Positions 8,875 through 26,817 of a stretch of DNA of 64,000 nucleotides are shown here, one piece after another. A program made the position numbers and the translations under genes. Position 1 is the first letter of the stretch. Every line of letters begins with the position of its first letter. The stretch is from NCBI RefSeq assembly GCF_013201035.1, contig NZ_CP053707.1, positions 186,001 through 250,000 on the forward strand, written 5' to 3'. Below the pieces are notes generated by a model. The model made no database searches. It was not told where the DNA came from and was given only the letters and a program-made list of their open reading frames with translations. The DNA is from Arthrobacter sp. NEB 688 (GTDB lineage Bacteria > Actinomycetota > Actinomycetes > Actinomycetales > Dermatophilaceae).

Positions 8875-10428
8875 GTGCGCTTTCGCATCGCTCTCGTCTG
8901 CCTGTCCTCCCTCGCTCTCCTCCTCCCGACCTCTGCGGCCCTGGCCGTCGAGTCGCCGCGCCCGGCGGTCTCCTCGGAGGCCACCCCGAGCCCGGTGCTC
9001 CCCGAGCAGGGCGGCTCGCTCGCCGACCCGCTGGGCGGCGGCATCCCCGCCGTCGGCGACCCGTCGACGGGCCCGGCACCGGTCGAGGTGACGGACCGGG
9101 TGCCGACCTCGGAGAACCCGTCGAGCGTGCTCGGCTGGGCCGGCGTGCTCCTGCTCGTCCTCGTGTCCCTCGTCCTGTCCGGGGTGGCCTTCACGACACT
9201 CGCGTGGATGCTGCACGCCTGGCGCACGCCGGAAGGCCTGCGCGCGACCCGGTTCGGCGGCCGCTCCAGCCGCGAGAAGCCGCTGCGCTTCAGCCTCCTG
9301 GTGCCGGCGCGGCACGAGGAGGCCGTGCTCGGCGACACCCTCGACACCCTGAGCGCGCTCGACTACGGCGACCTCGAGATCATCGCGATCGTCGGCGACG
9401 ACGACGAGGGCACGGCCGCCGTCGCGCACGCCGCCGCGAGGCGCCACCCCGGCCGCGTGCGGGTCGTCGTCGACTCCAGCGTCCCCAAGAACAAGCCGAA
9501 GGCCCTCAACACCGCACTGCGCGAGGTGACCGGCGACGTCGTCGGCGTCTTCGACGCGGAGGACGAGGTCCACAGCGACCTCCTCGCGCACATCGACGCG
9601 CGCTTCCACGAGACCAAGGCCGACATCGTCCAGGGCGGCGTGCAGCTGATGAACGTCCACACGACGTGGTGGTCGATGCGCAACTGCCTCGAGTACTACT
9701 TCTGGTTCCGCAGCCGCCTGCACTTCCACGCCGGTCAGCGGTTCATCCCGCTCGGCGGCAACACGGTCTTCATGCGCACCGACCTGCTGCGCGAGGTCGA
9801 CGGCTGGGACCCCGAGTGCCTCGCCGAGGACTGCGAGATCGGCGTGCGCGTCTCGACCCGCGGGGCCACCGTCGCCGTCGCCTACGACCCCGAGCTCGTC
9901 ACCCGCGAAGAGACCCCCGGCGCCCTCCCGTCGCTCATCAAGCAGCGCACCCGCTGGAACCAGGGCTTCCTCCAGGTGCTCGCCAAGGGCGTCTGGCGCG
10001 AGCTGCCGACCGCCCGCCAGCGGCTGCTGGCCCGCTACACGCTCTCGATGCCGTTCCTCCAGGCCTTCACCGGCCTGATGATCCCGGTCTCGCTCGGGCT
10101 CGTCCTCTTCGCGAAGGTCCCGACCTGGGTCAGCCTCGTCACCTTCCTCCCGCTCGTGCCGACCCTCGTCACGCTCGCCGTCGAGGCCGCCGGCCTCCAC
10201 GAGTTCGGCCGCGCCTACGACGTCAAGGTCCGGCTGCGCGACTACGCCGTCCTCGTCCTCGGGGCCTTCCCCTACCAGGTGCTCCTCGCGGGGGCCGCCG
10301 TGCGCGCGGTCTGGCGCGAGAAGCGCGGCCAGCGCGGCTGGGAGAAGACCGAGCACAGCAACCTCCACCGCACCCCGGCGCCGGCCCTCGCCCCGGTCGT
10401 CGAGCTCGCCGAGCGGAAGGCCTCCTGA
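8875..10428 (+). CDS. BcsA-like processive GT2 glycosyltransferase
   Basis: A 517-residue membrane glycosyltransferase, probably an exopolysaccharide synthase. A signal-like N-terminus (1-25) and a helix at 87-113 precede the GT-A domain. LLVPARHEEAV is at 141-151, GDDDE at 174-178, the DxD-type DAED at 227-230, the catalytic EDCE at 318-321 and the processivity motif QRTRW at 357-361, followed by four or so C-terminal helices. It lacks a PilZ domain, unlike proteobacterial BcsA. The GTG at 8875 has AGGGG 6 nt upstream. First gene of a five-gene operon with a GH8 glucanase, which suggests a cellulose- or beta-glucan-like product; the actual sugar is unknown. Confidence 0.85.
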   Translation: MRFRIALVCLSSLALLLPTSAALAVESPRPAVSSEATPSPVLPEQGGSLADPLGGGIPAVGDPSTGPAPVEVTDRVPTSENPSSVLGWAGVLLLVLVSLVLSGVAFTTLAWMLHAWRTPEGLRATRFGGRSSREKPLRFSLLVPARHEEAVLGDTLDTLSALDYGDLEIIAIVGDDDEGTAAVAHAAARRHPGRVRVVVDSSVPKNKPKALNTALREVTGDVVGVFDAEDEVHSDLLAHIDARFHETKADIVQGGVQLMNVHTTWWSMRNCLEYYFWFRSRLHFHAGQRFIPLGGNTVFMRTDLLREVDGWDPECLAEDCEIGVRVSTRGATVAVAYDPELVTREETPGALPSLIKQRTRWNQGFLQVLAKGVWRELPTARQRLLARYTLSMPFLQAFTGLMIPVSLGLVLFAKVPTWVSLVTFLPLVPTLVTLAVEAAGLHEFGRAYDVKVRLRDYAVLVLGAFPYQVLLAGAAVRAVWREKRGQRGWEKTEHSNLHRTPAPALAPVVELAERKAS

Positions 10429-12410
10429 TGACCGTCATCGACCGCCCCACCACGACCACCGGGGTCGCTCCCGACGACGCGACGCCCGCGACCTCGCGGC
10501 TGCGCCGGGCCTGGTCCCGCGCCACCGACCCGCGCGGCGACCTCGTCGTCCTCGCGCCGCTGCTCGTCCTCGCCGGCGTCGTCATGCGCATCGGGCTCTA
10601 CAGCGCGCCGCAGCGCATCGACGACGAGGGTACGTACGTCGCCCAGGCCTGGGCCGTCTTCCACCTCGGCGAGCTGACGCACTACACGTACTGGTACGAC
10701 CACCCGCCGCTGGGCTGGTTGCAGATCGCCCTGTACACCGAGCTGACGGGCGCCTTCGACCGCGCCCCGAACGCCGTCGGCGCCGGCCGCGAGCTCATGG
10801 TGCTGCTCGCGCTCGTCAGCGCCGCGCTCCTCTGGGTGCTCGCGCGCCGGCTGCGGATGCCCCGCTGGGGCGCCGGGCTGGCGGTGGCCCTCTTCACGCT
10901 GTCGCCGCTGGCCGTGCAGTTCCACCGCACCGTCTACCTCGACAACGTCGCGACGCCGTGGCTCCTCGGGGCGTTCGTCCTCGCGCTCAGCCCGCGGCGG
11001 CGTCTCGGCGCCTTCGCGGCGGCCGCGGTCTGCTTCGCCGTCGCCGTGCTGTCCAAGGAGACGACCTTCCTCCTCTTCCCGGTGCTCGCCTACCTCCTGT
11101 GGAGCCGCAGCCGGGGCGGCACCCGCCGCTACGCGGTCGCGGTCTCCGCGACGCTCTTCGTGCTCATCGGCACCTTCTACGTCCTCTTCGCCGCGCTCAA
11201 GGGCGAGGTCGTCCCCGGCCAGGGCCGCACCAGCCTCCTCGGCGGCGTGCTCTACCAGCTGTCCGGCCGCGAGAGCAGCGGCAGCATCTTCGACCCCGAG
11301 TCGCTCGGCCACCGCACGGTCTCCATCTGGCTGCAGCTCGACACCGTCCTGCCCGCCGTGGCCGTCGTCGCGACGCTGCTGGCCTTCGCCGTCCGACGGC
11401 TGCGGCCGTTCGCGGCGGCGATGGCCATCCTGCTGGCGATGCTCGTCCGCCCCGGGTACCTGCCCGTGCCGTTCGTCGTCGCGCTGCTGCCGCTCGGGGC
11501 GCTGCTCGTCGCGGGCGTCGCGACCACCCTCTGGGAGAACCGGCCGACCCGCCTCGCGGGACGCCGGGTCGGCCGCGTGGCGGCCGGCGCGCTCGTCGCC
11601 GTCGGGCTCGGCCTCGCCGCCGTCGCCACGCCCGCCTGGGCCGGCCAGCTGCGCGGCCTGATGATCGCGCCGCTCGACCAGCCGATGACCGACGCGACCG
11701 CGTGGATCGCGCAGAACGTGCCGACCGGCGAGCGCATCCTCACCGACGACGCGCTGTGGGTCGACCTCGTCGAGCAGGGCCGCGCCCGCGGCGACGTCGT
11801 CTGGTTCTACAAGCCCGACACCGACCCGGCCGTCCCGAAGGGCGCCGACGCCTACCAGTGGGTCGTCTCGACCGACTCCGTCCGCAGCGACCCCCGCTCG
11901 TTCCCGACCCTCGCCGAGGCGCTGGAGCGCAGCGTCCCGGTCGCGGCGTTCGGGACCGGGGAGCGCCGCGTCGAGGTCCTCCGGGTGCAGCGCGCCGGCA
12001 CCGACCCCGAGGTCCTCGAGCAGCAGCGCGCCGCGGCGGCCGCTGCGGGCCAGCAGCTCGTCGCCAACCCGGCCATCACGACCTCGACGGCCGCGCGCGA
12101 CGCACTCCTGTCCGGCCGGGTCGACCCGCGCCTGCTCACCGTGCTGGCCTCCCTCGGAGCGCAGCACACGCTGAGCCTCGAGGCGCTGCCGCAGCCCGCC
12201 CCGGAAGAGGCGGCCGGTGCCGCGCGCCGCACGGTGACCATCACGGAGGTGGACGGCGACGCCGCCGTCCGGGACTCGTCAGCGGCGGCCGAGGTCGCGC
12301 GCCTGTCCGCTGACCGCCCGGCCCCCTACCGCGCCGACGTGCGCTTCACCGAGGCCGGGAGCGACACCCCGCCGGCCCTCGTCCTGTCCTGGCCCCGGTC
12401 GACCCGATGA
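10428..12410 (+). CDS. GT-C glycosyltransferase, family 39/ArnT-like
   Basis: A 660-residue polytopic membrane protein with about ten to twelve helices. The first periplasm-facing loop carries the acidic motif DDEGTY (about 64-69) and YDHPPLGW, typical of polyprenyl-phosphate-sugar-dependent GT-C enzymes of the PMT/ArnT class. LDN and SKE follow at loops 3-4. It would transfer a lipid-linked sugar to an acceptor outside the membrane, fitting with the polyprenol-sugar synthase at the end of the operon. The start overlaps the upstream stop (TGATG), so translation is coupled. The C-terminal 150 residues are a soluble extracellular domain. Confidence 0.8.
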   Translation: MTVIDRPTTTTGVAPDDATPATSRLRRAWSRATDPRGDLVVLAPLLVLAGVVMRIGLYSAPQRIDDEGTYVAQAWAVFHLGELTHYTYWYDHPPLGWLQIALYTELTGAFDRAPNAVGAGRELMVLLALVSAALLWVLARRLRMPRWGAGLAVALFTLSPLAVQFHRTVYLDNVATPWLLGAFVLALSPRRRLGAFAAAAVCFAVAVLSKETTFLLFPVLAYLLWSRSRGGTRRYAVAVSATLFVLIGTFYVLFAALKGEVVPGQGRTSLLGGVLYQLSGRESSGSIFDPESLGHRTVSIWLQLDTVLPAVAVVATLLAFAVRRLRPFAAAMAILLAMLVRPGYLPVPFVVALLPLGALLVAGVATTLWENRPTRLAGRRVGRVAAGALVAVGLGLAAVATPAWAGQLRGLMIAPLDQPMTDATAWIAQNVPTGERILTDDALWVDLVEQGRARGDVVWFYKPDTDPAVPKGADAYQWVVSTDSVRSDPRSFPTLAEALERSVPVAAFGTGERRVEVLRVQRAGTDPEVLEQQRAAAAAAGQQLVANPAITTSTAARDALLSGRVDPRLLTVLASLGAQHTLSLEALPQPAPEEAAGAARRTVTITEVDGDAAVRDSSAAAEVARLSADRPAPYRADVRFTEAGSDTPPALVLSWPRSTR

Positions 12411-12487
12411 CCCGCCGCGCCACCACCCCGACCCGTTCCACCAGGGCCGCCACGCGCGTCCTGACCGCCCCCGGAGAGAGGAACACC

Positions 12488-13459
12488 ATGCACACCACCA
12501 CGCCACACCGGGCGCCCCGCGTCCTCGCGGTCCTCGCGGCCGCCGTGGCCGTCGCCCTCGGCGCCTTCGCGCCCTCGGCGTCCGCCGCCCCCGCCCCCGC
12601 CGCCGACGGGATGGCCACCGCCTGGGTCCGCGCCGCGCACCTCGTCCCGGGGATGGGGAAGATGACCATCAGCCTCGTGCCCTTCGCGGGCGCGGCGGCC
12701 GGGGACGTCACCAAGCCCGGTGTCCCCGAGGCCGAGCAGAAGGACGGCGCCCGCGTCGTCGAGCCCGCGGCCGGCTACGGCACGGCGGGGGACTACCGCC
12801 AGGTCCCGCAGGGTCTCTACACCGTCACCGTCCGCCCGGCGGGCGCCGCGGCGGACGCCCCGCCGGTCCTCACCGGCACCGTCGACGCCAAGGCGGACCA
12901 GGCGTACACGCTGGCTGCGCTGGGCACCAAGAGCTCGCCGCGCATCCAGGTCCTCTCCGACGACCTGCGCCCGCCGAAGGCGGGGACCGCGAGCGTGCGG
13001 CTGCTCCCGGCGGCCACGCGGGCGTCGGCCGTCACCGTCGCCGCGCAGAACGGCCCGACGGTCGCCGACGACGCGAAGTTCGGCACCCCCACCGGGTACG
13101 CCGCGGTGCCCGACGGGCCGTGGACGCTGAACGTCAGCACGACGACGACGAGCGCCGGCCGCGCGACGCAGGGCAGCAGCACGACCGGCAAGGTCGACCT
13201 CGCGAGCGGCGGCGTCTACACCCTCCTCGTCCTCGACTCCGCGAACGGCGAGGGCGTCGCCCTCAAGCCGGTCGTGGACGCACAGGGCGTCGCGACCGCC
13301 CCGAAGGACGGCGTGCAGACCGGGGGCGGCGGGATGGCCACGCGCCCGGCCGACACCACCCTGCTCGGCGGTCTCGGTCTCGCCGCGGCCGGTGCGTCGT
13401 TCCTCCTCGTCCTGGCCGTGCGTCGGCGCTCCTCCCTCCTGTCGACGCGCCGCGCCTGA
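12488..13459 (+). CDS. Secreted DUF4397 protein with C-terminal membrane anchor
   Basis: A 323-residue surface protein. A signal peptide of about 32 residues ends at ASA-AP. Two tandem beta-sandwich-like halves start AWVRAAHLVPGM and TASVRLLPAA, the pattern of DUF4397 domains. The C-terminus is a helix (GLGLAAAGASFLLVLAV) followed by RRR and a short basic tail, as in sortase substrates, but no LPxTG-type motif is evident (nearest is RPADTT). GGAGAGAGGAA precedes the ATG at 12488; an upstream in-frame ATG at 12407 overlaps the GT-C gene and would bury the signal. It may be a surface scaffold for the polymer. Confidence 0.75.
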   Translation: MHTTTPHRAPRVLAVLAAAVAVALGAFAPSASAAPAPAADGMATAWVRAAHLVPGMGKMTISLVPFAGAAAGDVTKPGVPEAEQKDGARVVEPAAGYGTAGDYRQVPQGLYTVTVRPAGAAADAPPVLTGTVDAKADQAYTLAALGTKSSPRIQVLSDDLRPPKAGTASVRLLPAATRASAVTVAAQNGPTVADDAKFGTPTGYAAVPDGPWTLNVSTTTTSAGRATQGSSTTGKVDLASGGVYTLLVLDSANGEGVALKPVVDAQGVATAPKDGVQTGGGGMATRPADTTLLGGLGLAAAGASFLLVLAVRRRSSLLSTRRA

Positions 13460-14613
13460 TGCGGTCCGTCCGGGGCCCGCTCGCGCTCGTCGCGGTCCTC
13501 TCCGTGGCGGTCGCCACGGTGCTGGCCCTCGTCGTGACCGGGTGGTCCCCCGACGGGGACACCCCGCGGTCCGCCGCCCCGACGGCCGCCCCGTCGGCCT
13601 CGGGGTCGGCGCTGCCCGCCGGCCCGGACCTCGCCGCCCGCTTCGTCGACGCCTACGTCGACGCGGACGGGAGGGTGGTCCGCCGCGACCAGGGTGGTGA
13701 CACCGTGAGCGAGGGCCAGGCGTACGCCATGCTCCTCGCCGCGGCGGACGACGACGAGCAGACCTTCGACCGGGTCTGGGGCTGGACCCGCGCGAACCTC
13801 CTGCGTCCCGACGGCCTGCTGTCGTGGACGTGGGCGGACGGCGCCGTCGTCGACGCCAACTCGGCGGCCGACGCCGACGTCGACGCGGCCCACGCCCTCG
13901 TCGTCGCCGGCGAGCGGTTCGGCCGGTCGGACCTCGCGTCCGCGGGGAGGGCGCTCGCCGCGGCGGTGCTCGACCACGAGACGGCGCAGACCTCGCTCGG
14001 CCGGGTCCTGCTCGCCGGGCAGTGGGCCGACACCGAGCCCTACCGGGTCAACCCCAGCTACTCGGCCCCCGCGGCGTACGCCGTGCTGGGCCGGGCCACC
14101 GGCGACGCCCGCTGGGCGGACCTCGCCGACGGCGACCGGGCCGTGCTCGGCGCCCTGCTCGACGAGGCGCCGCTCCCACCGGACTGGGCCCAGGTGCGGG
14201 CCGACGGGACGGTCGACGCGATGCCCCCGCCCGGCGGAGGCGAGGTCGCCCACGGTCTCGACGCCCAGCGCGTCGCCGTCCGGTACGCGGTGTCGTGCGA
14301 CACCGACGACCGCGCCCTGGTCGAGCGGCTCGGCGGTGCGGTGCCCACCGCGACCGCCGACGTCCGCGGCGTCTACGACCTCGGCGGCACCGCCACGGTC
14401 GAGTGGCAGCACCCCGTCGCGCTCGTGTCGGCGGCCGCCGTCAGCGACGCCGAGGGGAAGACCGGCCCGGCCGGCGAGCTGCTGCGTGCGGCCGCCGACC
14501 TCGACACCCGGGCGAGCACCTACTACGGCGCGGCCTGGGCCGCCCTCGGGGAGGACCTCCTCGAGGACCCGACGACGCTCGGCATCACCTGCCGGGACCA
14601 GGAGACCCGATGA
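13459..14613 (+). CDS. Membrane-anchored glycoside hydrolase family 8 (BcsZ-like endoglucanase)
   Basis: A 384-residue enzyme with an N-terminal signal anchor (about 7-29) and a Ser/Ala/Pro linker. GH8 signatures: SEGQAYAMLLAA with the candidate general acid Glu85, RVWGWTRANLL, LLSWTWADG, and ANSAADADVDAAHAL with the catalytic-type Asp residues at 138-142. Later NPSYSAP and the alpha6/alpha6 helix pattern also fit. In cellulose operons such an enzyme (BcsZ) trims the nascent glucan. The start overlaps the upstream stop (TGATG). It supports a beta-glucan-type product of this operon. Confidence 0.85.
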   Translation: MRSVRGPLALVAVLSVAVATVLALVVTGWSPDGDTPRSAAPTAAPSASGSALPAGPDLAARFVDAYVDADGRVVRRDQGGDTVSEGQAYAMLLAAADDDEQTFDRVWGWTRANLLRPDGLLSWTWADGAVVDANSAADADVDAAHALVVAGERFGRSDLASAGRALAAAVLDHETAQTSLGRVLLAGQWADTEPYRVNPSYSAPAAYAVLGRATGDARWADLADGDRAVLGALLDEAPLPPDWAQVRADGTVDAMPPPGGGEVAHGLDAQRVAVRYAVSCDTDDRALVERLGGAVPTATADVRGVYDLGGTATVEWQHPVALVSAAAVSDAEGKTGPAGELLRAAADLDTRASTYYGAAWAALGEDLLEDPTTLGITCRDQETR

Positions 14614-16091
14614 CCCCCGACACCACCCCCGTGACGTCCGCGCTCGTCGTCGTCCCCACCTACGACGAGCGGGAGTCCGTCGAGCGCGCGGTCACCCGGG
14701 TGCTCGCCGCCGACCCGCGTACCGAGGTGCTGGTCGTCGACGACGGCAGCCCGGACGGCACGGCCGACCTCGTCGCGGCGCTCGCCGCCGACGAGCCCCG
14801 GCTGCACCTGCTGCGCCGCAGCGGGAAGGGCGGGCTCGGCAGTGCCTACCGCGCCGGCTTCGCGTGGGCGCTCGAGCGCCGGTACGACGCCGTCGTCGAG
14901 ATGGACGCCGACCTGTCGCACCCCGCGACGCGGCTGCCCGCGCTGCTCGACGGCCTCGCCGACGCCGATCTCGTCATCGGCTCGCGGTGGGTGGACGGCG
15001 GCGCGACGCATGGCTGGCCACTGTCCAGGCAGCTGCTGTCCCGCGGCGGCAACCTCTACGTCCGGATCGCCCTCGGGCTCGGGGTGGGGGACGCGACCGC
15101 CGGCTTCCGGGCCTTCCGGCGCGCCGCCCTCGAGACGATCGACCCCACGAGCCTGGTCAGCGAGGGGTACGCGTTCCAGATCGAGTCGACGTACGTCGCC
15201 CGCCGGCTGGGGTTGCGCCTGCTCGAGGTCCCCATCACGTTCACCGAGCGCGCTGAAGGCACCTCGAAGATGAGCGGTCGCATCGTCCTCGAGGCGCTGC
15301 TGCGGGTCACCGGCTGGGCGGTCGGCATCGGTCGTCCCCCGGCGGCCCGACGACGTGCGGTGCTCGCCCGTGGCGGCTCGGTCCCCGCGGTGCGGCCGCT
15401 CGCGAAGGTCGCGGCGGTGCTCGCCGCGCTGGCGCTCGTCGGTGGCGTCGCGCTCGCGGCCCGGGCGGCGACGCACCCCGAGCCGGCGAGCCTGGCACCC
15501 CTCCCGGCGCGCAGCGCCGCCCCGGTCCCGGCCTCGCCGTCGCCGGACGCCACGCCGTCCGGGGCGGGCGACGCCGCCGGCGGTGACGAGGCCCGCGACG
15601 CGGGCTCGAACGACGCGTCCATCCCGGTGCCTGCGGCCGGCTCCGACACGCCCGCGGCGCAGCAGCCGGTGGCCATCCGGATCCCCGCCATCGGGGTCGA
15701 GTCGCGGCTCATCGACCTCGGGATCGCGAAGGACGGGACGATGCAGGTGCCGACCGACCCGGCGCTCGCGGGCTGGCTCACCGGTGCCCCGGCGCCCGGA
15801 GAACGCGGCCCCGCGGTCATCGCCGGCCACGTCGACACGCACGAGGGGCCGGCCGTGTTCTACCGCCTGCGCCAGCTCGAGCCCGGTGACGCCATCGAGG
15901 TCGAGCGGCGCGACGGCACGACCGTGACCTTCACCGTCCGCCGGCTGGAGACCTTCGCGAAGGACGACTTCCCGACCGACCGGGTCTACGGGCCCGCCCC
16001 CGGCCCGGTGCTGCGCCTCATCACGTGCAGCGGCGACATCGACCCCGTGACCGGGCACTACGTCGACAACACCGTGGTGTTCGCCTCCTGA
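14610..16091 (+). CDS. Fusion: polyprenol-phosphate mannose synthase-like GT2 plus class F-like sortase
   Basis: One uninterrupted 493-codon frame with two enzymes. Residues 12-240 are a DPM1/Ppm1-type GT2: VVPTYDERESV, VDDGSPDGTA (43-52), MDADLSH with the DxD-type site (98-104), GYAFQIE and EGTSKMSGR. A basic stretch (RRR 247-249) and a single helix at about 266-287 follow, then a Pro/Ala/Ser linker (288-350) and a sortase domain: RIPAIGVESRLIDLGI, GHVDTHEG with His407, and LRLITCSGD with Cys473. Predicted topology puts the GT2 inside and the sortase outside, which is consistent. The Arg expected near the end (GHYVDN, 482-487) is Val. ATGA overlap with the GH8 gene. A sequencing error joining two genes cannot be ruled out. 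Confidence 0.82.
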   Translation: MTPDTTPVTSALVVVPTYDERESVERAVTRVLAADPRTEVLVVDDGSPDGTADLVAALAADEPRLHLLRRSGKGGLGSAYRAGFAWALERRYDAVVEMDADLSHPATRLPALLDGLADADLVIGSRWVDGGATHGWPLSRQLLSRGGNLYVRIALGLGVGDATAGFRAFRRAALETIDPTSLVSEGYAFQIESTYVARRLGLRLLEVPITFTERAEGTSKMSGRIVLEALLRVTGWAVGIGRPPAARRRAVLARGGSVPAVRPLAKVAAVLAALALVGGVALAARAATHPEPASLAPLPARSAAPVPASPSPDATPSGAGDAAGGDEARDAGSNDASIPVPAAGSDTPAAQQPVAIRIPAIGVESRLIDLGIAKDGTMQVPTDPALAGWLTGAPAPGERGPAVIAGHVDTHEGPAVFYRLRQLEPGDAIEVERRDGTTVTFTVRRLETFAKDDFPTDRVYGPAPGPVLRLITCSGDIDPVTGHYVDNTVVFAS

Positions 16092-16745: not shown

Positions 16746-17075
16746 TCAGGGGGTGCCGGGGGCGGGGTCGGCGGGTGCGGGCTCCGGCGCCATCTCGGCC
16801 ACGGGCGCCGCCACCGGGACGCGAGATGGTGCAGCGGCACGCGCCGGGGGGTTGTGGAGCGTCGAGGCGACGATGCCGACACCGACGACGGCGGCCAGCC
16901 ACGCGAGGCCGAAGCGGAGGACGGCCTGGTCGATCGAGAGGTTGCCGGCCTGGACGAGCATCGCGGCGGGGACGAACATCCCCACCCCGAACAGGGCGCC
17001 GAGGCCGAAGCGCTCGGGCGAGTGCGGCTTGGCCGCCTTGGCCTTGCCCTCTCCCCCATCCTTCTTGCGACCCAC
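16746..17075 (-). CDS. Small membrane protein downstream of flhA, function unknown
   Basis: A 109-residue protein I do not recognise. A Lys/Gly/Ala-rich basic N-terminus (1-22) is followed by two hydrophobic helices (about 26-44 and 53-71) and an Ala/Pro-rich tail of about 38 residues. It starts one nt after the flhA stop, so it is cotranscribed and probably translated by coupling; a terminator follows. Position alone suggests a role at the export gate or a generic envelope role. It might be specific to actinobacterial flagellar clusters. Confidence 0.6.
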   Translation of the reverse strand: MGRKKDGGEGKAKAAKPHSPERFGLGALFGVGMFVPAAMLVQAGNLSIDQAVLRFGLAWLAAVVGVGIVASTLHNPPARAAAPSRVPVAAPVAEMAPEPAPADPAPGTP

Positions 17076-17076
17076 G

Positions 17077-19149
17077 TCAGACCCCCGCCGTGCCGAGCGC
17101 GTCGGCCGGGGCGACGTCGACGACGCCCGCGGTGGTCAGGGTCAGGTGCCCGCCGAGCTCCTGGTACGCGAGCACCGGCAGCTGCGGGGCCGCGCCCTCG
17201 ACGAGCCGGCGCACCGCCCGCCGCAGCGGCTGCGCGCAGACCAGCACCGGCTGCACGCCGGCCTCCTCGACCGAGCGCGAGACGCGGGCGGCCTCGGTGG
17301 CCAGCCGGTCGGCGAAGTAGGGGTCGAGCAGCAGCTGGGCGCCGCCGTCGCCGGTGCGCAGCGACTCGAGCAGCCGCTGCTCCAGGCGCGGCTCGAAGGT
17401 GAGGACGTGCAGCTCGCCGTGGGAGGCGTGCGACGCGGCGATGGCCGGGCCGAGCGCCAGGCGGGCGGCCTCGACGAGCGCGTCGGGGTCGGTGGTGACG
17501 CGGGCCCGTAGCGAGATCGCCTCGAAGATGCGGACGAGGTCGCGGATGCCGACGCCCTCGACGAGCAGCCCCTTGAGCACGCGCTGGATCTCGCCGAGCG
17601 CGAGCGGGTTCGGGGTGAGCTCCTCGATGACCTGCGGGTGCGTGGAGCGCACCGCGTCGACGAGCAGCTTGACGTCCTCGCGGCCGAGCAGGTCGGCGGC
17701 GTGCCGGCGCACGGTCTCGGCGAGGTGGGTCGTGATGACCGACGAGCGGTCGACGACGGTGCCGTCGAGCGCCTCGGCGCGACCTCGCAGGTGCGCGGCG
17801 ACCCACTTGGCCTCGAGCCCGAAGACCGGCTCGCGGGTGGGGGTGCCCTCGAGGTGCGCGATGGCGTCGCCGATGACGAGCACGTGCCCGGCGGGTGCCT
17901 CGCCCCGCGCGACCTCGACGCCGTGGACGCGGATGCCGTACGTGTGCGAGGGCAGGTCGAGGTTGTCGCGGGTGCGCACGAGCGGGATGACGACGCCGAG
18001 CTCCATCGCGAGCTTGCGACGCAGCGCCTTGACCCGGCCGAGCAGGTCGCCGCCGTTGTCGGCGTCGACGAGGCCGATGAGGTCGAAGGCCAGCTCGAGC
18101 TCGAGCGGCTCGACGCGGATGTCGTGGGCGAGGACCTGCGGGCTGTCGGGCGACGGTGCGGCGTCGCGCTCGGCGGCGGCCTCCTCGGCGCGCCGGGCCT
18201 CCTCGCGCTCCTCGAGCTTGGGCATCGCGCGGGCCAGGAGGATCGCGCCGCCGCCGACGAGGATGAAGGGCAGCTTCGGCAAGGCGGGCACGAGGGCCAG
18301 CGCCATGATGACGACGCCGGCGATCTGGATGGCGCCGCGCTGCTGGCCGAACTGGTGGATGATGTCGCCGCCCATGTCGCGCTCGGTCGAGGCGCGGGTG
18401 ACGATGATGCCGGTCGACATCGACAGCAGCAGGGCGGGGATCTGCGAGACGAGGCCGTCGCCGACCGACAGGAGGCTGTAGGTCTGGATCGCGTCCCCGA
18501 CGGCCTGGCCGTTCTGGACGACGCCGATGACGAGCCCGCCGATGAGGTTGACGAGCGTGATGACGATGGCGGCGATCGCGTCGCCCTTGACGAACTTCGA
18601 GGCACCGTCCATCGCACCGTAGAAGTCGGCCTCCCCCGAGACCTCCTTGCGGCGGCGACGCGCCTCGTCCTCGTCGATGAGGCCCGAGTTGAGGTCGGCG
18701 TCGATGGCCATCTGCTTGCCGGGCATCGCGTCGAGCGTGAAGCGGGCGGCGACCTCCGCCACGCGCCCGGCACCGTTGGTGATGACGACGAACTGGATGA
18801 CGACGAGGATGAGGAAGATGACGAGGCCGACGACGAGCGAGCTGCCGACGACGAAGTGACCGAACGCCTCGATGACCTTGCCGGCGAACCCGTCGACGAG
18901 CACGAGGCGGGTCGCGCTGATGTTGAGCGCGAGACGGAAGAGCGTCGCGACGAGCAGCAGCGACGGGAAGACCGCGAAGTCCAGCGGCCGCGTCACGCGC
19001 AGCGCGACGAGCAGCACGAGCACCGAGATCGTGAGGTTCACGGCCAGCAGCAGGTCGAGCAGCATGCTCGGCACCGGCACGACCATCATGACGACGACCC
19101 CGACGACGGCGGCCGGGATGCCGATCTGGCTCAGCCGCGTGTTCTTCAT
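17077..19149 (-). CDS. flhA: Flagellar export gate protein FlhA
   Basis: A 690-residue core of the flagellar type III export apparatus, whose cytoplasmic ring docks chaperone-substrate complexes and uses the proton gradient. Eight helices occupy roughly 1-320 with the family signatures VPSMLLDLLLAVNLTISVLVLL and FPSLLLVATLFRLALNISATR; the FHIPEP-type segment appears as DAMPGKQMAIDADLNSGLIDEDEAR. The C-terminal domain (about 350-690) contains the RDNLDLPSHTYGIRVHGVEVA region. Length is normal. The start codon overlaps the stop of a 14-codon upstream frame. It has its own sigma-28-like promoter and lies downstream of flhB. Confidence 0.95.
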   Translation of the reverse strand: MKNTRLSQIGIPAAVVGVVVMMVVPVPSMLLDLLLAVNLTISVLVLLVALRVTRPLDFAVFPSLLLVATLFRLALNISATRLVLVDGFAGKVIEAFGHFVVGSSLVVGLVIFLILVVIQFVVITNGAGRVAEVAARFTLDAMPGKQMAIDADLNSGLIDEDEARRRRKEVSGEADFYGAMDGASKFVKGDAIAAIVITLVNLIGGLVIGVVQNGQAVGDAIQTYSLLSVGDGLVSQIPALLLSMSTGIIVTRASTERDMGGDIIHQFGQQRGAIQIAGVVIMALALVPALPKLPFILVGGGAILLARAMPKLEEREEARRAEEAAAERDAAPSPDSPQVLAHDIRVEPLELELAFDLIGLVDADNGGDLLGRVKALRRKLAMELGVVIPLVRTRDNLDLPSHTYGIRVHGVEVARGEAPAGHVLVIGDAIAHLEGTPTREPVFGLEAKWVAAHLRGRAEALDGTVVDRSSVITTHLAETVRRHAADLLGREDVKLLVDAVRSTHPQVIEELTPNPLALGEIQRVLKGLLVEGVGIRDLVRIFEAISLRARVTTDPDALVEAARLALGPAIAASHASHGELHVLTFEPRLEQRLLESLRTGDGGAQLLLDPYFADRLATEAARVSRSVEEAGVQPVLVCAQPLRRAVRRLVEGAAPQLPVLAYQELGGHLTLTTAGVVDVAPADALGTAGV

Positions 19150-19190
19150 CGGACCTCGCGCTGGCGACGGGAGCAGGGGGTGACGGACAT
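19146..19190 (-). CDS. Possible 14-codon leader peptide of flhA
   Basis: A short frame, MSVTPCSRRQREVR, begins at the ATG 10 nt after the -10 box of the flhA promoter and ends in a TGA that overlaps the flhA ATG (ATGA). No Shine-Dalgarno sequence stands before flhA other than within this frame (GCGAGG), so the short frame could couple translation to flhA. Coding is unproven; position is the only evidence. Confidence 0.35.
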   Translation of the reverse strand: MSVTPCSRRQREVR

Positions 19191-19200
19191 CTCGGGTCTC

Positions 19201-19227
19201 CCATCGGCAGGCACGGACGTGACCTGA
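19201..19227 (-). promoter_or_regulatory. Sigma-28-type promoter of flhA
   Basis: Minus strand TCAGGTCA (19220-19227), 11 nt, GCCGATGG (19201-19208). It shares the 8-11-8 layout and nearly all bases with the boxes before fliM, flbD, flgB and fliC. The same architecture, with GCCGAT at -10, is known for FliA/SigD/WhiG-type sigma factors. Confidence 0.8.
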
Positions 19228-19258
19228 GGGCTCGGGACGGTCGGGGTGGTCGGGATGC

Positions 19259-20368
19259 TCACGCGGCGACCCCCGCGCGGTCGGTGCCGGCGTGCGGGCT
19301 GCGGTGGAAGCCGCTCGTCACCCCGCGGCGCTTGAGGCCGAGGACGAAGACGAACACCCCGGCGACGGCGTCGAACAGCTCGGCCGGGATCTCGTCGCCG
19401 ACGTCGCACATCCGGTAGACGGTGCGCGCGAGGGGGACGTCCTCCACCATCGGCAGGCGCAGCTCGGCCGCCTCCTCGCGGATGCGGGCCGCCGCCGCCC
19501 CGGCGCCGCGCGCGACGACCTTCGGTGCGCCCAGGCCCATCTCGTACTTGAGCGCGACCGCGACGTGCGTCGGGTTGACGAGCACGACGTCGGCCGACGC
19601 GAGGTTGGAGAGCATCCGGTTGCGGCTCATCTCGCGCTGCTTGCCGCGGATCATGCCCTTGAGCATCGGGTCGCCCTCGGACTGCTTGTGCTCACGCTTG
19701 ATCTCGTCCTGGCTCATCTTCAGCTGGGAGCCGATGCGCCGCTTCTCCATGACGAAGTCGGCGCCGGCGAGGACGAGCCCGACGCCGGCGACGAGCCGCA
19801 GGACGTGCGTGACGGCGCCGACCGCGGCGGACGCGGCCGCCCCGAGTGACCACGAGCCGTGGGTCGTCATGAGGATCGCGACGTCGCGCAGCTCGGTGTA
19901 GCCGACCCACCCGAAGACGACGAACTTGGCGAGCGTCTTCGCGAGGGTCCACGCCGAGTGCGCCGAGACGAGCTGCTTGAGCCCCTTGCCCGCGTTGAGG
20001 ACACCGAAGTTGGGCTTGAACTTGCCGGGGTAGACCCGGATGCCGCCCTGGACCGCGCTGCTCACGAGCGCCGCGACGACCATGACGCCGAGGAAGGGCG
20101 CAAGCACCCACACGGCGTCGATGCCGGTCTGCCGGAGCACCGTCAGGCCCCGCTCGGGCTGCGGGTCGATGATGACCTCGCGCAGCCCCTGGAGCGTGCC
20201 GACGAACAGGTCCGACAGCCCGGAGACGAGCCGCGGCAGGAGGATCGATGCCAGCAGCACCGCGGCCCACGCGCTCAGCTCGGCGGTGCGGGCGACCTGC
20301 CCGTCGCGGCGCGCCTTCTTGAGCCGCTGCGGGGTGGGCTTCTCGGTCTTCTGCGACTTGTCGCTCAC
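19259..20368 (-). CDS. flhB: Flagellar export switch protein FlhB
   Basis: A 369-residue export-apparatus protein that switches substrate class from rod/hook to filament. Starts with the family leader SDKSQKTEKPTPQRLKKARRDGQ; four helices span about 30-210; the autocleavage motif NPTH is at 265-268 and is intact, followed by the usual VALKY. The C-terminal extension after residue 345 is basic and not conserved. It begins 4 nt after fliR and is the last gene of the fliM-flhB unit. Confidence 0.95.
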   Translation of the reverse strand: MSDKSQKTEKPTPQRLKKARRDGQVARTAELSAWAAVLLASILLPRLVSGLSDLFVGTLQGLREVIIDPQPERGLTVLRQTGIDAVWVLAPFLGVMVVAALVSSAVQGGIRVYPGKFKPNFGVLNAGKGLKQLVSAHSAWTLAKTLAKFVVFGWVGYTELRDVAILMTTHGSWSLGAAASAAVGAVTHVLRLVAGVGLVLAGADFVMEKRRIGSQLKMSQDEIKREHKQSEGDPMLKGMIRGKQREMSRNRMLSNLASADVVLVNPTHVAVALKYEMGLGAPKVVARGAGAAAARIREEAAELRLPMVEDVPLARTVYRMCDVGDEIPAELFDAVAGVFVFVLGLKRRGVTSGFHRSPHAGTDRAGVAA

Positions 20369-20372
20369 CGGG

Positions 20373-21152
20373 TCAGCCCCTCGCCCCGAGCATCCGCGCC
20401 ACCGACGTCATGTCGCGGCCGGTCTGGTCGACGAGCTCGCTGACGACCCCGGGCAGCAGCGCGAAGGCCATCCCCGCGAAGGAGATGACGAGGATGATCT
20501 TGACCGGGAAGCTGATCGCGAAGATGTTGAGCGTCGGCACGGCCCGGGAGACGAGGCCGAGCACGATCTCCGCGAGGAAGAGGACGACGAGCACCGGGCC
20601 CGCGACCTGGAGCGCGCCGCCGACGAACGCGCCGACGCCGTCGGTGACGAGCCGGCCGAGGTCGCCGAGCGACATCGGGTGCAGCGGCAGCACGGTGAAG
20701 GTCGAGATGAGCCCGCGCACGAGGAAGAGGTGGCCGCCGCTCGCGAAGAGCAGGGTGATGGCGAGCAGCTGGTGGATGCGCCCGAAGATGCTGCTCGACG
20801 CGTTCGACATCGGGTCGTAGAGGGTCGCGAGGGTGAAGCCGCTCGCGAGGTCGAGCAGCTCGCCGGCGGCCTGGACCACCGCGAAGGCGAGGAGGACGAC
20901 GAAGCCCATCGCCGCCCCGACGACCGCCTGGTACAGGGCCGCCCCGACGAGCGGGAAGAGCTCGAGCGCCGGCGCCGCCTGCCCGCGCAGGGCCGGCAGC
21001 ACCGCGAGCGAGAGCGCCACGGCCAGACCGGCCTTGACCCGCATCGGGATCGCCTTGCTGCTGAACGGCGGCGCGAGGATGAAGAACACCGACACCCGCA
21101 CCGTCGCGAGCAGCATCGTGACGAGCGAGTCGGCGGCGAAGGCGATCGTCAT
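20373..21152 (-). CDS. fliR: Flagellar export protein FliR
   Basis: A 259-residue polytopic component of the FliPQR export gate. Six or so helices; the family features are RVSVFFILAPPFSSKAIPMRVKAGLAVALSL-type spacing near 20-50 and the central PLVGAALYQAVVGAAMGF. The ATG overlaps the fliQ stop by one nt. Length is normal. Confidence 0.93.
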   Translation of the reverse strand: MTIAFAADSLVTMLLATVRVSVFFILAPPFSSKAIPMRVKAGLAVALSLAVLPALRGQAAPALELFPLVGAALYQAVVGAAMGFVVLLAFAVVQAAGELLDLASGFTLATLYDPMSNASSSIFGRIHQLLAITLLFASGGHLFLVRGLISTFTVLPLHPMSLGDLGRLVTDGVGAFVGGALQVAGPVLVVLFLAEIVLGLVSRAVPTLNIFAISFPVKIILVISFAGMAFALLPGVVSELVDQTGRDMTSVARMLGARG

Positions 21153-21421
21153 CAGCTGAGCAGCTGCGGGAGCATGTCGAACATCGCGCGGGTGAAGGAG
21201 ACCGCCTCCTGGAGCATCCAGTGGCCGGCGACGACGAGGACGACCGCGACCCCGATGAGCTTCGGCACGAAGCTGAGCGTCACCTCCTGGACCTGCGTGA
21301 CGGCCTGGAAGAGCGAGATGACGAAGCCGACCGCGAGCGCGGTCAGGAGCACGGGCATCGCCAGCTTCGCGCTGACGATCATCGCCTGCACCCCGATGTG
21401 GACGATGTCGGCGTCGGTCAC
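21152..21421 (-). CDS. fliQ: Flagellar export protein FliQ
   Basis: An 89-residue two-helix export-gate subunit: helix 1 about 15-38, helix 2 about 51-72, with the family motif GFVISLFQAVTQVQEVTLSFVPK between them. It lies 10 nt after fliP and overlaps fliR. Confidence 0.94.
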   Translation of the reverse strand: MTDADIVHIGVQAMIVSAKLAMPVLLTALAVGFVISLFQAVTQVQEVTLSFVPKLIGVAVVLVVAGHWMLQEAVSFTRAMFDMLPQLLS

Positions 21422-21431
21422 GGCGCGCCCC

Positions 21432-22226
21432 TCACCGGTAGCTCTGGACGAGGGCGGTGACGATGAGGCCCCACCCGTCGACCATGACGAAGAGGAGGAG
21501 CTTGAAGGGCAGCGAGATGAGCGCCGGCGGCAGCATCATCATGCCCATCGACATGAGCACGGAGCTGACGACGACGTCGATGACGAGGAACGGCACGAAG
21601 ATGACGAAGCCGATGATGAACGCCGACTTCAGCTCCGAGAGGACGAAGGCCGGCACGAGCGTCGTCAGCGGCACGTCCTCGATCGTCGCGGGCTTCTCCT
21701 CGCCGCTCAGCTTGACCATCGTCGCGAGCTCGGCGGGCCGGGTCTGCTCCCCCATGAACGTCCGCAGCGGCTTGACCGTCCGCTCGATGGCCTGCGACTG
21801 CGTGATGTCGCCCTTCATGTAGGGCTGGATGCCCTCGTCGTTCATCTGCGACAGGACCGGCGCCATGATGAAGAGGCTGAGGAAGAGCGCGAGGCCGACG
21901 AGGACCTGGTTCGGCGGGATGGTCTGCGTGCCGAGGGCGTTGCGGGTCAGCGACAGCACGACGATCACCTTGGTGAAGGCCGTCGTGAGGATGAGCAGCG
22001 CCGGCGCGAGCGACAGCACGGTGAGCAGGACGATGATCGTCACCGTCTGGCTCGGCTGCGTGCCGCCGCCGTCGAGCGTCACCGAGACCCCACCGGGGGT
22101 CGGCGACGGGCTCGGGGTCGGTGCGGCGGACGCGAGGGCGGCGCCGGGTCCGACGACCGTCACGAGCACGAGGCCGGTGACGAGCAGCAGCCGCAGCCGC
22201 CGCAGGAGCGCGAGGGGACTACGCAC
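21432..22226 (-). CDS. fliP: Flagellar export protein FliP
   Basis: A 264-residue export-gate subunit. An N-terminal cleavable-looking signal (to about residue 35, ASAAP) precedes the FliP core: VLLTVLSLAPALLIL, TAFTKVIVVLSLTRNALGTQTIPPNQVL, and at the end PFLVIDVVVSSVLMSMGMMMLPP. The GTG at 22226 is chosen from AAGGGGAG just upstream; it overlaps the end of fliO by 8 nt. Longer frames upstream run through fliO out of frame. Confidence 0.93.
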   Translation of the reverse strand: MRSPLALLRRLRLLLVTGLVLVTVVGPGAALASAAPTPSPSPTPGGVSVTLDGGGTQPSQTVTIIVLLTVLSLAPALLILTTAFTKVIVVLSLTRNALGTQTIPPNQVLVGLALFLSLFIMAPVLSQMNDEGIQPYMKGDITQSQAIERTVKPLRTFMGEQTRPAELATMVKLSGEEKPATIEDVPLTTLVPAFVLSELKSAFIIGFVIFVPFLVIDVVVSSVLMSMGMMMLPPALISLPFKLLLFVMVDGWGLIVTALVQSYR

Positions 22227-22824
22227 GACTCCCCTTGATCGCGCCGACGACGAGGGTCGCGGCGTTCCACGGCCAACCGGTCGGCACCGGGTTGCTCGCG
22301 GGCCGCGGCGCCGCGGCGGCCGGGCGGGGCCGCAGGTGGTGGCGGGAGCGCTCGAGCTCGCGGCGGCCGGCCCGCGTGGCGGGGAGGGCCGGCGACGTGG
22401 CGGGAGCGGGGACGGCGGCCGCCAGCGGCCCGAGGTCGAGGCCGGACTGGGCGGCCTGCATCCGCAGCGCGCTCGCGAAGTCGGGGACGGCGGCCACCGC
22501 GGGGACGGCCGCCGGGGAGGGCTCCGGCGCCGCGACGGGCTCCGGCTCGGCGAGGACGTCGGCGGAGAGCTCGCGCAGGAGGGAGACCTGCTGGTCGGTG
22601 ACGCCGAGGACGAGCACCTGCTCGCCGACGCGCACGACGTGGACGGCGGACCCGCGGCCCAGCGCGCGCCGCGACAGCACCTCGACCTGCACCCCGGCAC
22701 GCGTGCCGACCGCACCCCCGAGACCCCGCTTCCGCGCCCAGCGGGCGAGGAGCACGAGGAGGGTGAGGACGACGCCGAGGGAGACGAGGAGTCGCAGCAC
22801 GACGAGCACGACGGATCCGTCCAT
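22219..22824 (-). CDS. fliO: Flagellar biosynthesis protein FliO
   Basis: A 201-residue FliO-type assembly factor for the FliP ring. One N-terminal helix (about 4-27) is followed by the small conserved domain VQVEVLSRRALGRGSAVHVVRVGEQVLVLGVTDQQVSLL (about 46-84), then a long Ala/Pro-rich, poorly conserved tail. Order fliN-fliO-fliP is the standard one. The ATG overlaps the fliN stop by one nt. Confidence 0.87.
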   Translation of the reverse strand: MDGSVVLVVLRLLVSLGVVLTLLVLLARWARKRGLGGAVGTRAGVQVEVLSRRALGRGSAVHVVRVGEQVLVLGVTDQQVSLLRELSADVLAEPEPVAAPEPSPAAVPAVAAVPDFASALRMQAAQSGLDLGPLAAAVPAPATSPALPATRAGRRELERSRHHLRPRPAAAAPRPASNPVPTGWPWNAATLVVGAIKGSRA

Positions 22825-23216
22825 CAGGCGCCGAGCCCCAGGGCCGGGTCGGCGCTGACGATCTCGGTGACGCGGACGGCGTACTCGTCGTCGACGACGA
22901 CGACCTCGCCGCGCGCCATGAGCGTGCCGTTGACGAGGACGTCGACCGGGCTGCCGGCCGGGCGGTCGAGCTCGACGACCGCGCCCGGGGCCAGGCCGAG
23001 CACCTCGCGCACGGTCATCCGGCTGCGGCCGAGCTCGACGCTGATCCCCAGCTCGACCTCGCGCAGGAGGTGCAGGCGGCGCGGGTCGACGGCCGCGGCC
23101 GGGGCGGGCGCGCCACCCCCGAGCGGCGGCAGGGCGGGGGCGGCCTCGGGCTGCGCGAGCGGGGCGTCCCCACCGGTGGCGACGGCGAACGGGTCCTGGG
23201 TCTCGGGGAAGGTCAT
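22824..23216 (-). CDS. fliN: Flagellar switch protein FliN
   Basis: A 130-residue C-ring protein. A variable Ala/Pro-rich N-terminus (1-45) precedes the SpoA domain: VELGISVELGRSRMTVREVLGLAPGAVVELDRPAGSPVDVLVNGTLMARGEVVVVDDEYAVRV. The ATG at 23216 gives a standard FliN; the frame is open further upstream only as a shadow of fliM. It forms the switch with FliM and FliG. Confidence 0.93.
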   Translation of the reverse strand: MTFPETQDPFAVATGGDAPLAQPEAAPALPPLGGGAPAPAAAVDPRRLHLLREVELGISVELGRSRMTVREVLGLAPGAVVELDRPAGSPVDVLVNGTLMARGEVVVVDDEYAVRVTEIVSADPALGLGA

Positions 23217-23242
23217 GGCGGGTCTCCGGTCGGGTCGGGGGG

Positions 23243-24112
23243 TCAGGGGACGATCTGGACGGCGAGGCGGCGGCCGTGGCTGCCGGGCGTCGCCCGGGCG
23301 ACGCGCACGCCCCCCGCGGACACGACGAGGGGCTCCTCGGTGCGGTGGCGCAGGGGGACGACGTCGCCGACGGCCAGGGCGAAGACCTCGGCGGAGGTGA
23401 GCGTGACCTCGCGGAAGGAGATCTGGAGCTCGACGTCGACCTGGCCGAGGCGCTCGGTGACGACCCGGCGCACCTGCGCGGCCCGCTCCCCCGCGCCGTC
23501 GTCGTCGGCCATCTTGTCGAGGGAGGTGAGCAGCGGGGTGAGCGTGCTCAGGGTGATGCACGCCGTCAGCGGGACCGAGCGCTCGAAGACGAACAGCTCG
23601 AGCTCGACCGTGACGACGGGGTCGGTCGTGCGGGCGACCTGGTGGAAGCGCACCGTCGACTCGAGGCCGGTCAGCGCGACGGGCAGGTCGCCGATGACGG
23701 TGAAGGAGAAGGGCAGCTCGCCGACCATCTGGGCCAGGAGCAGCTCGGCCACCCCGGACTCGATCTCGGTGAGGGGCCGCTCGGGCTGAGCGCCGGTGCC
23801 GGAGCCGCCGAGCATCCGGTCGACGAACGCGAGCGCGTCGCCGAGCGAGAGCTGGGCGTGACCGCCGCCGGGGAGGTTCTCGACCGAGAGCGCGCCGAGG
23901 ACGCTGGGACGGGCCATCGACTCGAGGTACTCGCCGTAGGTGCACTGCCCGAGGGCGACCATCTTCGCGGGCACGATGGTGTGCAGGGCGGTCGAGAGCA
24001 CGGTGGAGACACGTCGGGCCCAGGTCTCGACGACGACCTGGAGCGCCTGCTCCCGCTGTCGCGAGAGCCGGTCCGGGCTCCGGAAGTCGTACGCCTGTGG
24101 CTCCACACTCAC
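23243..24112 (-). CDS. fliM: Flagellar motor switch protein FliM
   Basis: A 289-residue C-ring protein. The middle domain (about 25-215) starts EPQAYDFRSPDRLSRQ, with GALSVENLPG and LGDALAFVDRMLGG; a C-terminal SpoA domain covers about 218-289. The N-terminal CheY-P-binding helix (EIDALL type) of enteric and Bacillus FliM is absent. The GTG at 24112 is chosen because it lies 7 nt after the -10 box of the promoter, implying a leaderless message, and because actinobacterial FliM proteins begin close to QAYDFR; an in-frame GTG at 24163 lies upstream of that promoter. Confidence 0.9.
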   Translation of the reverse strand: MSVEPQAYDFRSPDRLSRQREQALQVVVETWARRVSTVLSTALHTIVPAKMVALGQCTYGEYLESMARPSVLGALSVENLPGGGHAQLSLGDALAFVDRMLGGSGTGAQPERPLTEIESGVAELLLAQMVGELPFSFTVIGDLPVALTGLESTVRFHQVARTTDPVVTVELELFVFERSVPLTACITLSTLTPLLTSLDKMADDDGAGERAAQVRRVVTERLGQVDVELQISFREVTLTSAEVFALAVGDVVPLRHRTEEPLVVSAGGVRVARATPGSHGRRLAVQIVP

Positions 24113-24119
24113 GGCCTGC

Positions 24120-24146
24120 CCATCGGCACCCGCCGGGGGGACCTGA
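24120..24146 (-). promoter_or_regulatory. Sigma-28-type promoter of fliM-N-O-P-Q-R-flhB
   Basis: Minus strand TCAGGTCC (24139-24146), 11 nt, GCCGATGG (24120-24127), 7 nt before the fliM GTG. Two terminator hairpins lie just upstream, so this unit has its own start. Confidence 0.82.
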
Positions 24147-24188
24147 GCGCTTCGTGGGTGCACGGGGACAGCAAGGGCCGTTCGGCCG

Positions 24189-24236
24189 ACCCGGTGGGGG
24201 ACGTCCGCCCGAGTGGGCGGGGTCCCCCGACCGGGT
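24189..24236 (-). terminator. Large terminator hairpin between fliL and fliM
   Basis: A compound stem: ACCCGGT/ACCGGGT, GGGGGAC/GTCCCCC and CCGCCC/GGGCGG around a GAGT loop, with one bulged G and a small internal loop. Confidence 0.8.
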
Positions 24237-24241
24237 GGCTG

Positions 24242-24270
24242 CGGGCCGGCTCCCTGTCCGTGCCGGCCCG
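24242..24270 (-). terminator. Terminator directly after fliL
   Basis: CGGGCCGGC (24242-24250) pairs with GCCGGCCCG (24262-24270) around an 11-nt loop, 23 nt downstream of the fliL stop. Confidence 0.75.
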
Positions 24271-24293
24271 AAGGCCGAGGGGTCAGTGCAGGG

Positions 24294-24764
24294 TCACTGC
24301 ATGACCAGCTCCGTCACGTAGACGTCCATGACGTCCCCGTCGTAGCGCTTCTTGATCTCCTTCTCGAGCGTCTTGATGGCCGCCTCCTTGGTCTTCGGCT
24401 GCAGCATCTGCTCGTAGGTGCGCTGGCCGAGGATGCTGATGGCGGCGTCGCGCGCCTTCGCGCCGTTGACGCCCTCCTTGCCGGCGGCGGTCTGGGCCTC
24501 CTCGGTCACCTCGAGCGAGAGGCCCATCTTGAGGTAGCGGCCGTCGGAGAGGTTGAGGGTCAGCGGGTCGAGGTCGACGACGACGCCGGGCGTCGGCTCG
24601 GGCTTCGGCTCCTCCGCGGAGTCCGACGAGGGCTTGAGGAAGAACCAGTACCCGCCGCCCGCCATGAGGAGCACCAGGACGATGGCGATGAGCATCATCG
24701 GCTTCTTCTTCTTCTCCGGCTCGGCGGCGGCGGCCGCTGCGGCGGGGACGGTGGCGGTGCTCAT
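24294..24764 (-). CDS. fliL: Flagellar basal-body-associated protein FliL
   Basis: A 156-residue stator-supporting protein. An Ala-rich cytoplasmic N-terminus with EKKKK is followed by one helix (about 24-43) and the periplasmic-side FliL domain: VVDLDPLTLNLSDGRYLKMGLSLEV, then ARDAAISILGQRTYEQM and the terminal VMDVYVTELVMQ. ATGA overlap with motB; last gene of the flbD-motA-motB-fliL unit. Confidence 0.93.
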   Translation of the reverse strand: MSTATVPAAAAAAAEPEKKKKPMMLIAIVLVLLMAGGGYWFFLKPSSDSAEEPKPEPTPGVVVDLDPLTLNLSDGRYLKMGLSLEVTEEAQTAAGKEGVNGAKARDAAISILGQRTYEQMLQPKTKEAAIKTLEKEIKKRYDGDVMDVYVTELVMQ

Positions 24765-26406: not shown

Positions 26407-26409
26407 GGC

Positions 26410-26679
26410 TCAGTCCTCCAGGCCCCGGACGGCGCGCAGGGCCACCCGGCCGGCGCTGGGGCGGGACCCGGGCTGACCGGTCCCGGACTCCTCGGCGGCG
26501 TGCAGGACCGACGCACGCGACGCGCGCATGATCCCGACCACCTCGTCGAGGGTCTCCTGCACGACGTACCGCGAGCCGGTGACGAGCAGGACGATGGTGT
26601 CCGGGGTCTCGTCGACGCGCTCGACGAGGTCGGGGTTGATCCCGAATCGCGTGCCGTTGCGGCGGGTGAGGATGATCAT
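26410..26679 (-). CDS. flbD: FlbD/SwrD family flagellar protein
   Basis: An 89-residue small protein; the core MIILTRRNGTRFGINPDLVE and TPDTIVLLVTGSRYVVQETLDEVV are diagnostic. In Bacillus the homologue SwrD supports stator power. The C-terminal 30 residues are basic and variable. It heads the flbD-motA-motB-fliL unit, with a sigma-28-type promoter 56 nt upstream, and its position before motA matches the stator link. The start at 26679 is supported by the conserved MIILTR. Confidence 0.88.
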   Translation of the reverse strand: MIILTRRNGTRFGINPDLVERVDETPDTIVLLVTGSRYVVQETLDEVVGIMRASRASVLHAAEESGTGQPGSRPSAGRVALRAVRGLED

Positions 26680-26735
26680 GGGGCCGGGTCCGTCCTGGGT
26701 GTTCTGGATGCGCCGTCCGTGGCGCGTCGGGGTTC

Positions 26736-26762: not shown

Positions 26763-26817
26763 GGTCCTGGCGGGTACCGACGAGGGGGATCGCGGGGGCC
26801 ACCGGGCCGTCCGCGAC

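Follow-up and report, generated by a model that had tools for sequence, protein, structure and literature searches.

In the genome of Arthrobacter sp. NEB 688, a 64-kb stretch of DNA (64,000 nucleotides; hereafter, the window) carries five overlapping genes on the + strand, the last of which joins a glycosyltransferase to a sortase in a single reading frame. The first gene encodes a BcsA-like processive GT2 (8875..10428; PF13641, 158.3 bits) with DDDEG, DAED, AEDCE, and QRTRW motifs; it is followed by genes for a 660-residue PMT_2-type glycosyltransferase (10428..12410; PF13231, 44.7 bits), a secreted DUF4397 protein that is a probable sortase substrate, judged by its gene neighborhood and its C-terminal tail (12407..13459; PF14344, 86.4 bits in two stretches), a GH8 (BcsZ-related) glycoside hydrolase (13459..14613; PF01270, 122.3 bits), and the GT2::class F sortase fusion itself (14610..16091). 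No GtrA gene was found in the 64-kb window. Directly downstream of this cassette, the - strand carries genes (16746-26922) that we take to be of the flagellar type.

The fusion gene begins at an ATG that overlaps the GH8 stop codon and is preceded by AGGAG. Translated from 14610 to 16091, it gives 493 residues (predicted mass 51.2 kDa) in which Pfam finds Glycos_transf_2 (PF00535) at residues 13-177, at 104.1 bits vs. a cut-off of 23.3, and Sortase (PF04203) at residues 356-492, at 83.2 bits vs. a cut-off of 26.6; an earlier note on this DNA, which had described one stop-free frame with both domains, was thus correct on this point. The N-terminal part (residues 1-238; 14610..15323), a cytoplasmic GT2 domain supported by Pfam, AlphaFold2, and comparison with 5mlz, contains VDDGS at residue 43 and DAD at residues 99-101; D45 and D101 are invariant in a 23-row alignment, one row of which (L035) spans the sortase only. 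Its closest solved relative is the dolichol monophosphate mannose synthase 5mlz (E 1.1e-31). By domain and motifs the GT2 part is classed as DPM1/Ppm1-type, with no match to the equivalog of a named synthase: it scores below the NCBIfam cut-offs for AglJ (57.7 vs. 325), ArnC-type (53.1 vs. 529), and PpgS (49.9 vs. 370) proteins.

An Arg-rich junction linker with poorly adapted codons (residues 239-260; 15324..15389) leads into a single membrane helix (residues 263-288; 15396..15473) that resembles, by eye, the N-terminal helix of four stand-alone sortases (L115, L116, L118, and L120). AlphaFold2 models the GT2 part with high confidence and predicts the helix; about 60 residues that follow (289-348) have low model confidence, and the sortase part is poorly modeled, with just one sortase relative in its alignment. 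The extracellular sortase domain (residues 349-493; 15654..16088) belongs to class F (NF033748, 187 bits vs. a cut-off of 166) and has His407 (codon at 15828) and Cys473 (codon at 16026), both conserved in all ten aligned sortases. In class A sortases, the third catalytic residue is Arg; no Arg follows the Cys of the fusion, and an Asn is conserved in ten of ten aligned sortases. The domains, their order, and their topology, as well as the class F-like sortase with His and Cys in place, had all been claimed in the earlier note, and these assignments hold.

How unusual is this arrangement? Searches with the fusion protein covered 58 genomes of relatives, 186 genomes of the family, and 149 genomes of the order, sets that overlap and in which only some candidates per genome were scored; among the matches listed, only the one in its own genome runs across residues 1-493. 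Likewise, in a scan of species contigs, none of the best 80 of at least 154 confirmed relatives spans both domains. The earlier note had named homologues always split into two genes as a finding that would speak against its reading, and what was found comes close to that: the relatives inspected either encode GT2 and sortase separately or lack the GT2, and a join of the two was seen in the source genome alone.

The fusion belongs to a set of genes that recurs in relatives. Searches for GH8 gave matches in 18 of 396 genomes of the order and 11 of 394 genomes of the class, the source genome being present in both, and 20 loci were inspected: the window, L115 from the congener G005, and 18 regions fetched around GH8 matches. 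Genes for the BcsA-like, PMT, DUF4397, GH8, and sortase proteins occur together in ten of them (the window, L115, L168, L169, L171, L172, L174, L175, L186, and L187). Eight of these ten full cassettes also have a DPM1-type GT2, fused in the window and separate in the other seven, where it follows the sortase (L168, L169, L172, L174, and L175) or comes first in the operon (L186 and L187); it is absent from L115 and L171. The L115 operon is the same except at its end, where a stand-alone sortase gene comes straight after GH8 and a GT2 is lacking; over 200 residues, this sortase and that of the window share 67% identity. GtrA is present in at least seven of the ten full cassettes; all eight neighboring ORFs that were scanned with Pfam proved to be GtrA, seven from full cassettes and the eighth from L170. 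Four other sites in the genus (L116, L117, L118, and L120, the latter a paralogue in the source genome) have a shorter set, PMT-DUF4397-sortase. The remaining loci are less complete: in L189, BcsA-PMT-DUF4397-GH8 are present, and neither a sortase nor a GT2 was found; L192 has BcsA-PMT-GH8 alone, L170 GtrA-GH8-GT2 alone, and L178 a looser set; and L173, L176, L177, L188, L190, and L191 have little besides GH8, L176 and L177 stopping near contig ends. The cassette genes of L175 are partly broken.

The sortase has been joined to a cassette neighbor more than once. In L169 (7015-8517; genome G310), the GH8 and class F sortase frames run together without a stop, and a like junction is open in L175 (13654-14610) from G432, a member of the same genus. 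This is a second, separate in-frame join of a cassette sortase, a case that concerns the junction itself because L175 has a broken GH8 frame and the GH8 start in L169 is doubtful. By eye, the GH8-joined sortases (L169 and L175) have no helix of their own. An isolated, frame-broken piece in G003 (L119:9729-10300) is 88.9% identical in DNA to window positions 15528-16091; it begins inside the spacer of the fusion and is thus uninformative on the join.

DUF4397 and class F-type sortase genes are steadily paired. A Pfam search found DUF4397 in 46 of 99 genomes of the order, and 65 places, one per gene by position, were read, with sortases called by an HMM made from ten class F relatives. In 55 of the 65, a class F-type sortase in the same orientation lies no more than 700 bases from the stop of DUF4397, and such a sortase is downstream on the same strand for 58 of the 59 DUF4397 genes that have at least 1 kb of downstream sequence; L250 is the sole gene with room and no sortase. 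Pairs outside the 700-base set are those of the window (2.2 kb apart, with GH8 and GT2 between), L240 (GH8 between), and L252, which has an unknown base in frame; an apparent DUF4397::sortase fusion in L252 was discounted because its frame runs through that base. When eight class F-type sortases were scanned against NCBIfam, six scored over 166, with L169 (148) and the fragment L004 (114) below; a ninth scanned sortase, L001, is class E.

DUF4397 C-termini share a layout: a [VA]-x-[TSA]-G motif, then a helix, then a basic tail, with the motif positioned where LPXTG would lie. In the window protein, GVQTG (residues 302-306; 13310..13324, + strand) is the candidate non-LPXTG sorting motif; a hydrophobic stretch starts at residue 319 (base 13361) and an RRR tail follows. 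There is no LPXTG in this tail, and no match to Gram_pos_anchor over the cut-off in the whole genome. A strict version, P-x-[GAS]-[VA]-x-[TSA]-G, is present within the last 85 residues of 49 of 62 proteins (three of the 65 rows were left out, two cut by a contig end and one with an unknown base), against a mean of 5.9 and a maximum of 14 in 1000 shuffles, a control that ignores shared ancestry; in 47 of these 49, the strongest hydrophobic stretch comes 6-18 residues after the motif. The strict pattern misses 13 of the 62 C-termini, among them PKDGVQTGGGG of the window; a looser pattern catches 59 of 63, the window included, and the loose motif, helix, and basic tail occur together in 56 of 63 complete C-termini. 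By eye, the cassette DUF4397 proteins of L172, L174, and L186 have the motif, but neither a helix nor a basic tail can be clearly made out after it. The conservation and placement of [VA]-x-[TSA]-G make it a candidate non-LPXTG sorting signal for class F sortases.

A literature search that covered few subscription journals returned a paper on Streptomyces Ppm1 but no report of a polyprenol-sugar synthase joined to a sortase, none in which the cassette parts appear together, no paper linking "DUF4397" with "sortase," and no non-canonical sorting signals in actinobacteria. The earlier claim that the fusion is undescribed can therefore be upheld within the genomes and literature searched, no second two-domain protein being found among the matches listed. 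The wider cassette, which pairs a class F sortase with its probable substrate, also appears undescribed: the new elements are the identification of the partner as DUF4397, its motif, and the cassette, while the idea of pairing sortases with substrates is not wholly new.

Where did the GT2 domain come from? In a 41-row tree, its nearest relatives (65% identity, support 99/97) are GT2 genes of G226 and G306, each immediately after a GtrA-like gene; this placement depends on three rows. These GtrA-GT2 pairs adjoin genes that we take to be purK/purE-like, and the source genome has a GtrA in a like position (L274:4911-5387), beside presumed purE/purK-like genes and with no GT2. The L274 protein resembles the cassette GtrAs by up to 55% and may be the flippase partner of the fusion GT2. 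Another close GT2 copy in the source genome (L121) adjoins an Lnt-like gene. Origin from the Lnt-adjacent housekeeping Ppm1 of the genus was rejected when all eight genus rows were held with the window (p-AU 6.7e-4) and more weakly when the window and the two GtrA-paired relatives were held with all eight (p-AU 0.011). The 41-row tree did not recover a grouping of the window GT2 with the cassette GT2s and the GtrA-paired relatives, nor was such a grouping rejected (p-AU 0.2); without those two relatives, the window and cassette GT2s gave p-AU 0.0615 with 39 rows and 0.005 with 41 rows, which is not a clean test. The first GT2 tree excluded duplicates and rows outside 230-330 aa, and every fifth of the remaining Lnt-adjacent rows was taken for the 39- and 41-row trees; a quick 133-row tree left the window unplaced. 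The window grouped with distant rows at 93/96 in the 39-row tree, a position that changed once the GtrA-paired GT2s were added and was abandoned.

Is the join genuine? The available data suggest that it is: the fusion is probably a real, probably young, lineage-specific in-frame join of two cassette members. A singleton invites the suspicion that two genes were joined by an assembly or sequencing error, but here this is very improbable: the source genome is one contig of 4,077,299 bases, 100% complete, and between 15274 and 15583 the two other + frames are free of stops. A single indel would therefore not yield two sensible genes, and a split gene with a frameshift was rejected. Codon usage points to the age of the junction. 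GC3 is 0.97 for the GT2 part and 0.96-0.97 for the three parts after the linker (helix, spacer, and sortase); the linker itself (15324-15389) falls to 0.73, and no other run of 22 codons in the fusion ORF has more A/T endings (6 of 22 codons vs. 16 of 471 elsewhere; Fisher p = 1.8e-4). This suggests that the stretch has been coding in its present frame for a short time and that the junction is young. The same poor codons, together with the singleton status, would also fit an accidental, functionless read-through, in which the stop codon of the GT2 was lost and most sortase comes from initiation at an internal GTG (15360 or 15390); GTG 15390 (VRPLA) lines up with the native starts VKPLA of L120 and VRPVL of L118. 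This reading is nevertheless unlikely, since no stop separates the domains and the long form is expected whenever the GT2 is made. Neither GTG is preceded by a clear ribosome-binding site, in contrast to AGGAG at 14610, a weak argument because the stand-alone genes L116, L118, and L120 also show none. Given the position of the start in L118 and L120, a separate sortase could be produced from GTG 15390 alongside the fusion.

If the fusion is genuine, what does it do? The explanation that we lean toward as a whole is a young cassette fusion that anchors the GT2 and needs no catalytic coupling. By family, the N-terminal GT2 would make a polyprenyl-phosphate hexose on the cytoplasmic face; the lipid-sugar would be flipped, possibly by the unlinked GtrA, and used outside by the PMT-type enzyme of the operon, while the BcsA-like synthase and GH8 would make and trim a β-glycan. 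The gene pairing and the conserved tail suggest that the class F sortase would cleave the operon's DUF4397 protein at V-x-T-G instead of LPXTG and anchor it to the wall. The join would give the GT2 a membrane helix and a fixed stoichiometry; most likely, the PMT-type enzyme receives polyprenyl-P-sugar from the GT2, which the join tethers to the membrane. The earlier note had instead proposed a protein that couples the making of a lipid-linked sugar inside with protein anchoring outside. True coupling, in which the two active sites form a unit, with synthesis and hand-over of the lipid-sugar at the site of DUF4397 glycosylation and anchoring, draws on the key residues kept in both halves, on the PMT and DUF4397 genes that share the operon of the fusion, and on the second join of this kind, that of GH8 and sortase in G310, whose junction is also open in G432. 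It is quite unlikely, however: the parts are separate genes in relatives, two of ten cassettes have no GT2, and some 60 low-confidence residues (289-348) intervene between the helix and the sortase. The cheaper reading is that a cassette member was joined to its neighbor and gained a membrane anchor. The observation of the fusion thus stands, and the interpretation first placed on it is supported in part. The boldest proposal, a bifunctional protein with lipid-sugar synthesis on one face of the membrane and anchoring of glycosylated DUF4397 protein on the opposite face, with class F enzymes as dedicated DUF4397 sortases acting via [GAS]-[VA]-x-[TSA]-G instead of LPXTG, is a long shot.

Some known systems resemble parts of the cassette. 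Actinobacterial Ppm1/DPM1-type synthases share the GT2 domain, its conserved motifs, and the solved relative 5mlz; the other close copy in the source genome (L121) is located beside an Lnt-like gene, whereas the tail of the fusion is a sortase. GtrA, GtrB, and GT-C proteins form three-part systems, and seven of ten cassettes likewise combine GtrA, a GT2, and a PMT-type enzyme; the cassette adds a β-glycan synthase, GH8, DUF4397, and a sortase, and in the source genome GtrA is unlinked and the GT2 fused. BcsA-BcsZ cellulose systems similarly combine a processive GT2 with QxxRW and a BcsZ-related GH8, but the synthase and GH8 of the window are far under the NCBIfam cut-offs for CelA (34.9 vs. 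699.1) and BcsZ (133.3 vs. 299).

The nearest parallels to the sortase pairing come from Actinoplanes and Streptomyces. According to one report, SrtF1 of Actinoplanes missouriensis (AMIS_11000) adjoins AMIS_11010 and SrtF4 adjoins AMIS_36440; both neighbors have a signal peptide, a C-terminal helix, and a basic stretch, and the authors thought that they may be sortase substrates, setting them aside with no known pentapeptide in either (PMC13251363). As in the cassette, a sortase is found beside a secreted protein with a C-terminal helix and basic stretch. In Streptomyces coelicolor, the sortase gene sco3737 adjoins sco3738, which encodes a membrane protein; in one paper, sco3737 is assigned to the SrtE family (cd05829), loss of Ppm1 raises sco3737 37-fold and sco3738 32-fold, and a proposal is cited that sortases of one divergent group share transcripts with their substrates (PMC5882110). 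The rise of sco3737 and sco3738 upon Ppm1 loss is a loose parallel to the tie between sortase and lipid-sugar in the cassette.

The physiological roles of class F sortases were reported as unknown in the Actinoplanes study, in which a quadruple deletion left sporangia normal (PMC13251363). The steady pairing with DUF4397 and the conserved, well-placed motif make the question of class F substrates directly testable. The cassette ties class F-type sortases to lipid-linked sugars and a β-glycan synthase, and in the fusion there is a hint from nature that these steps go together.
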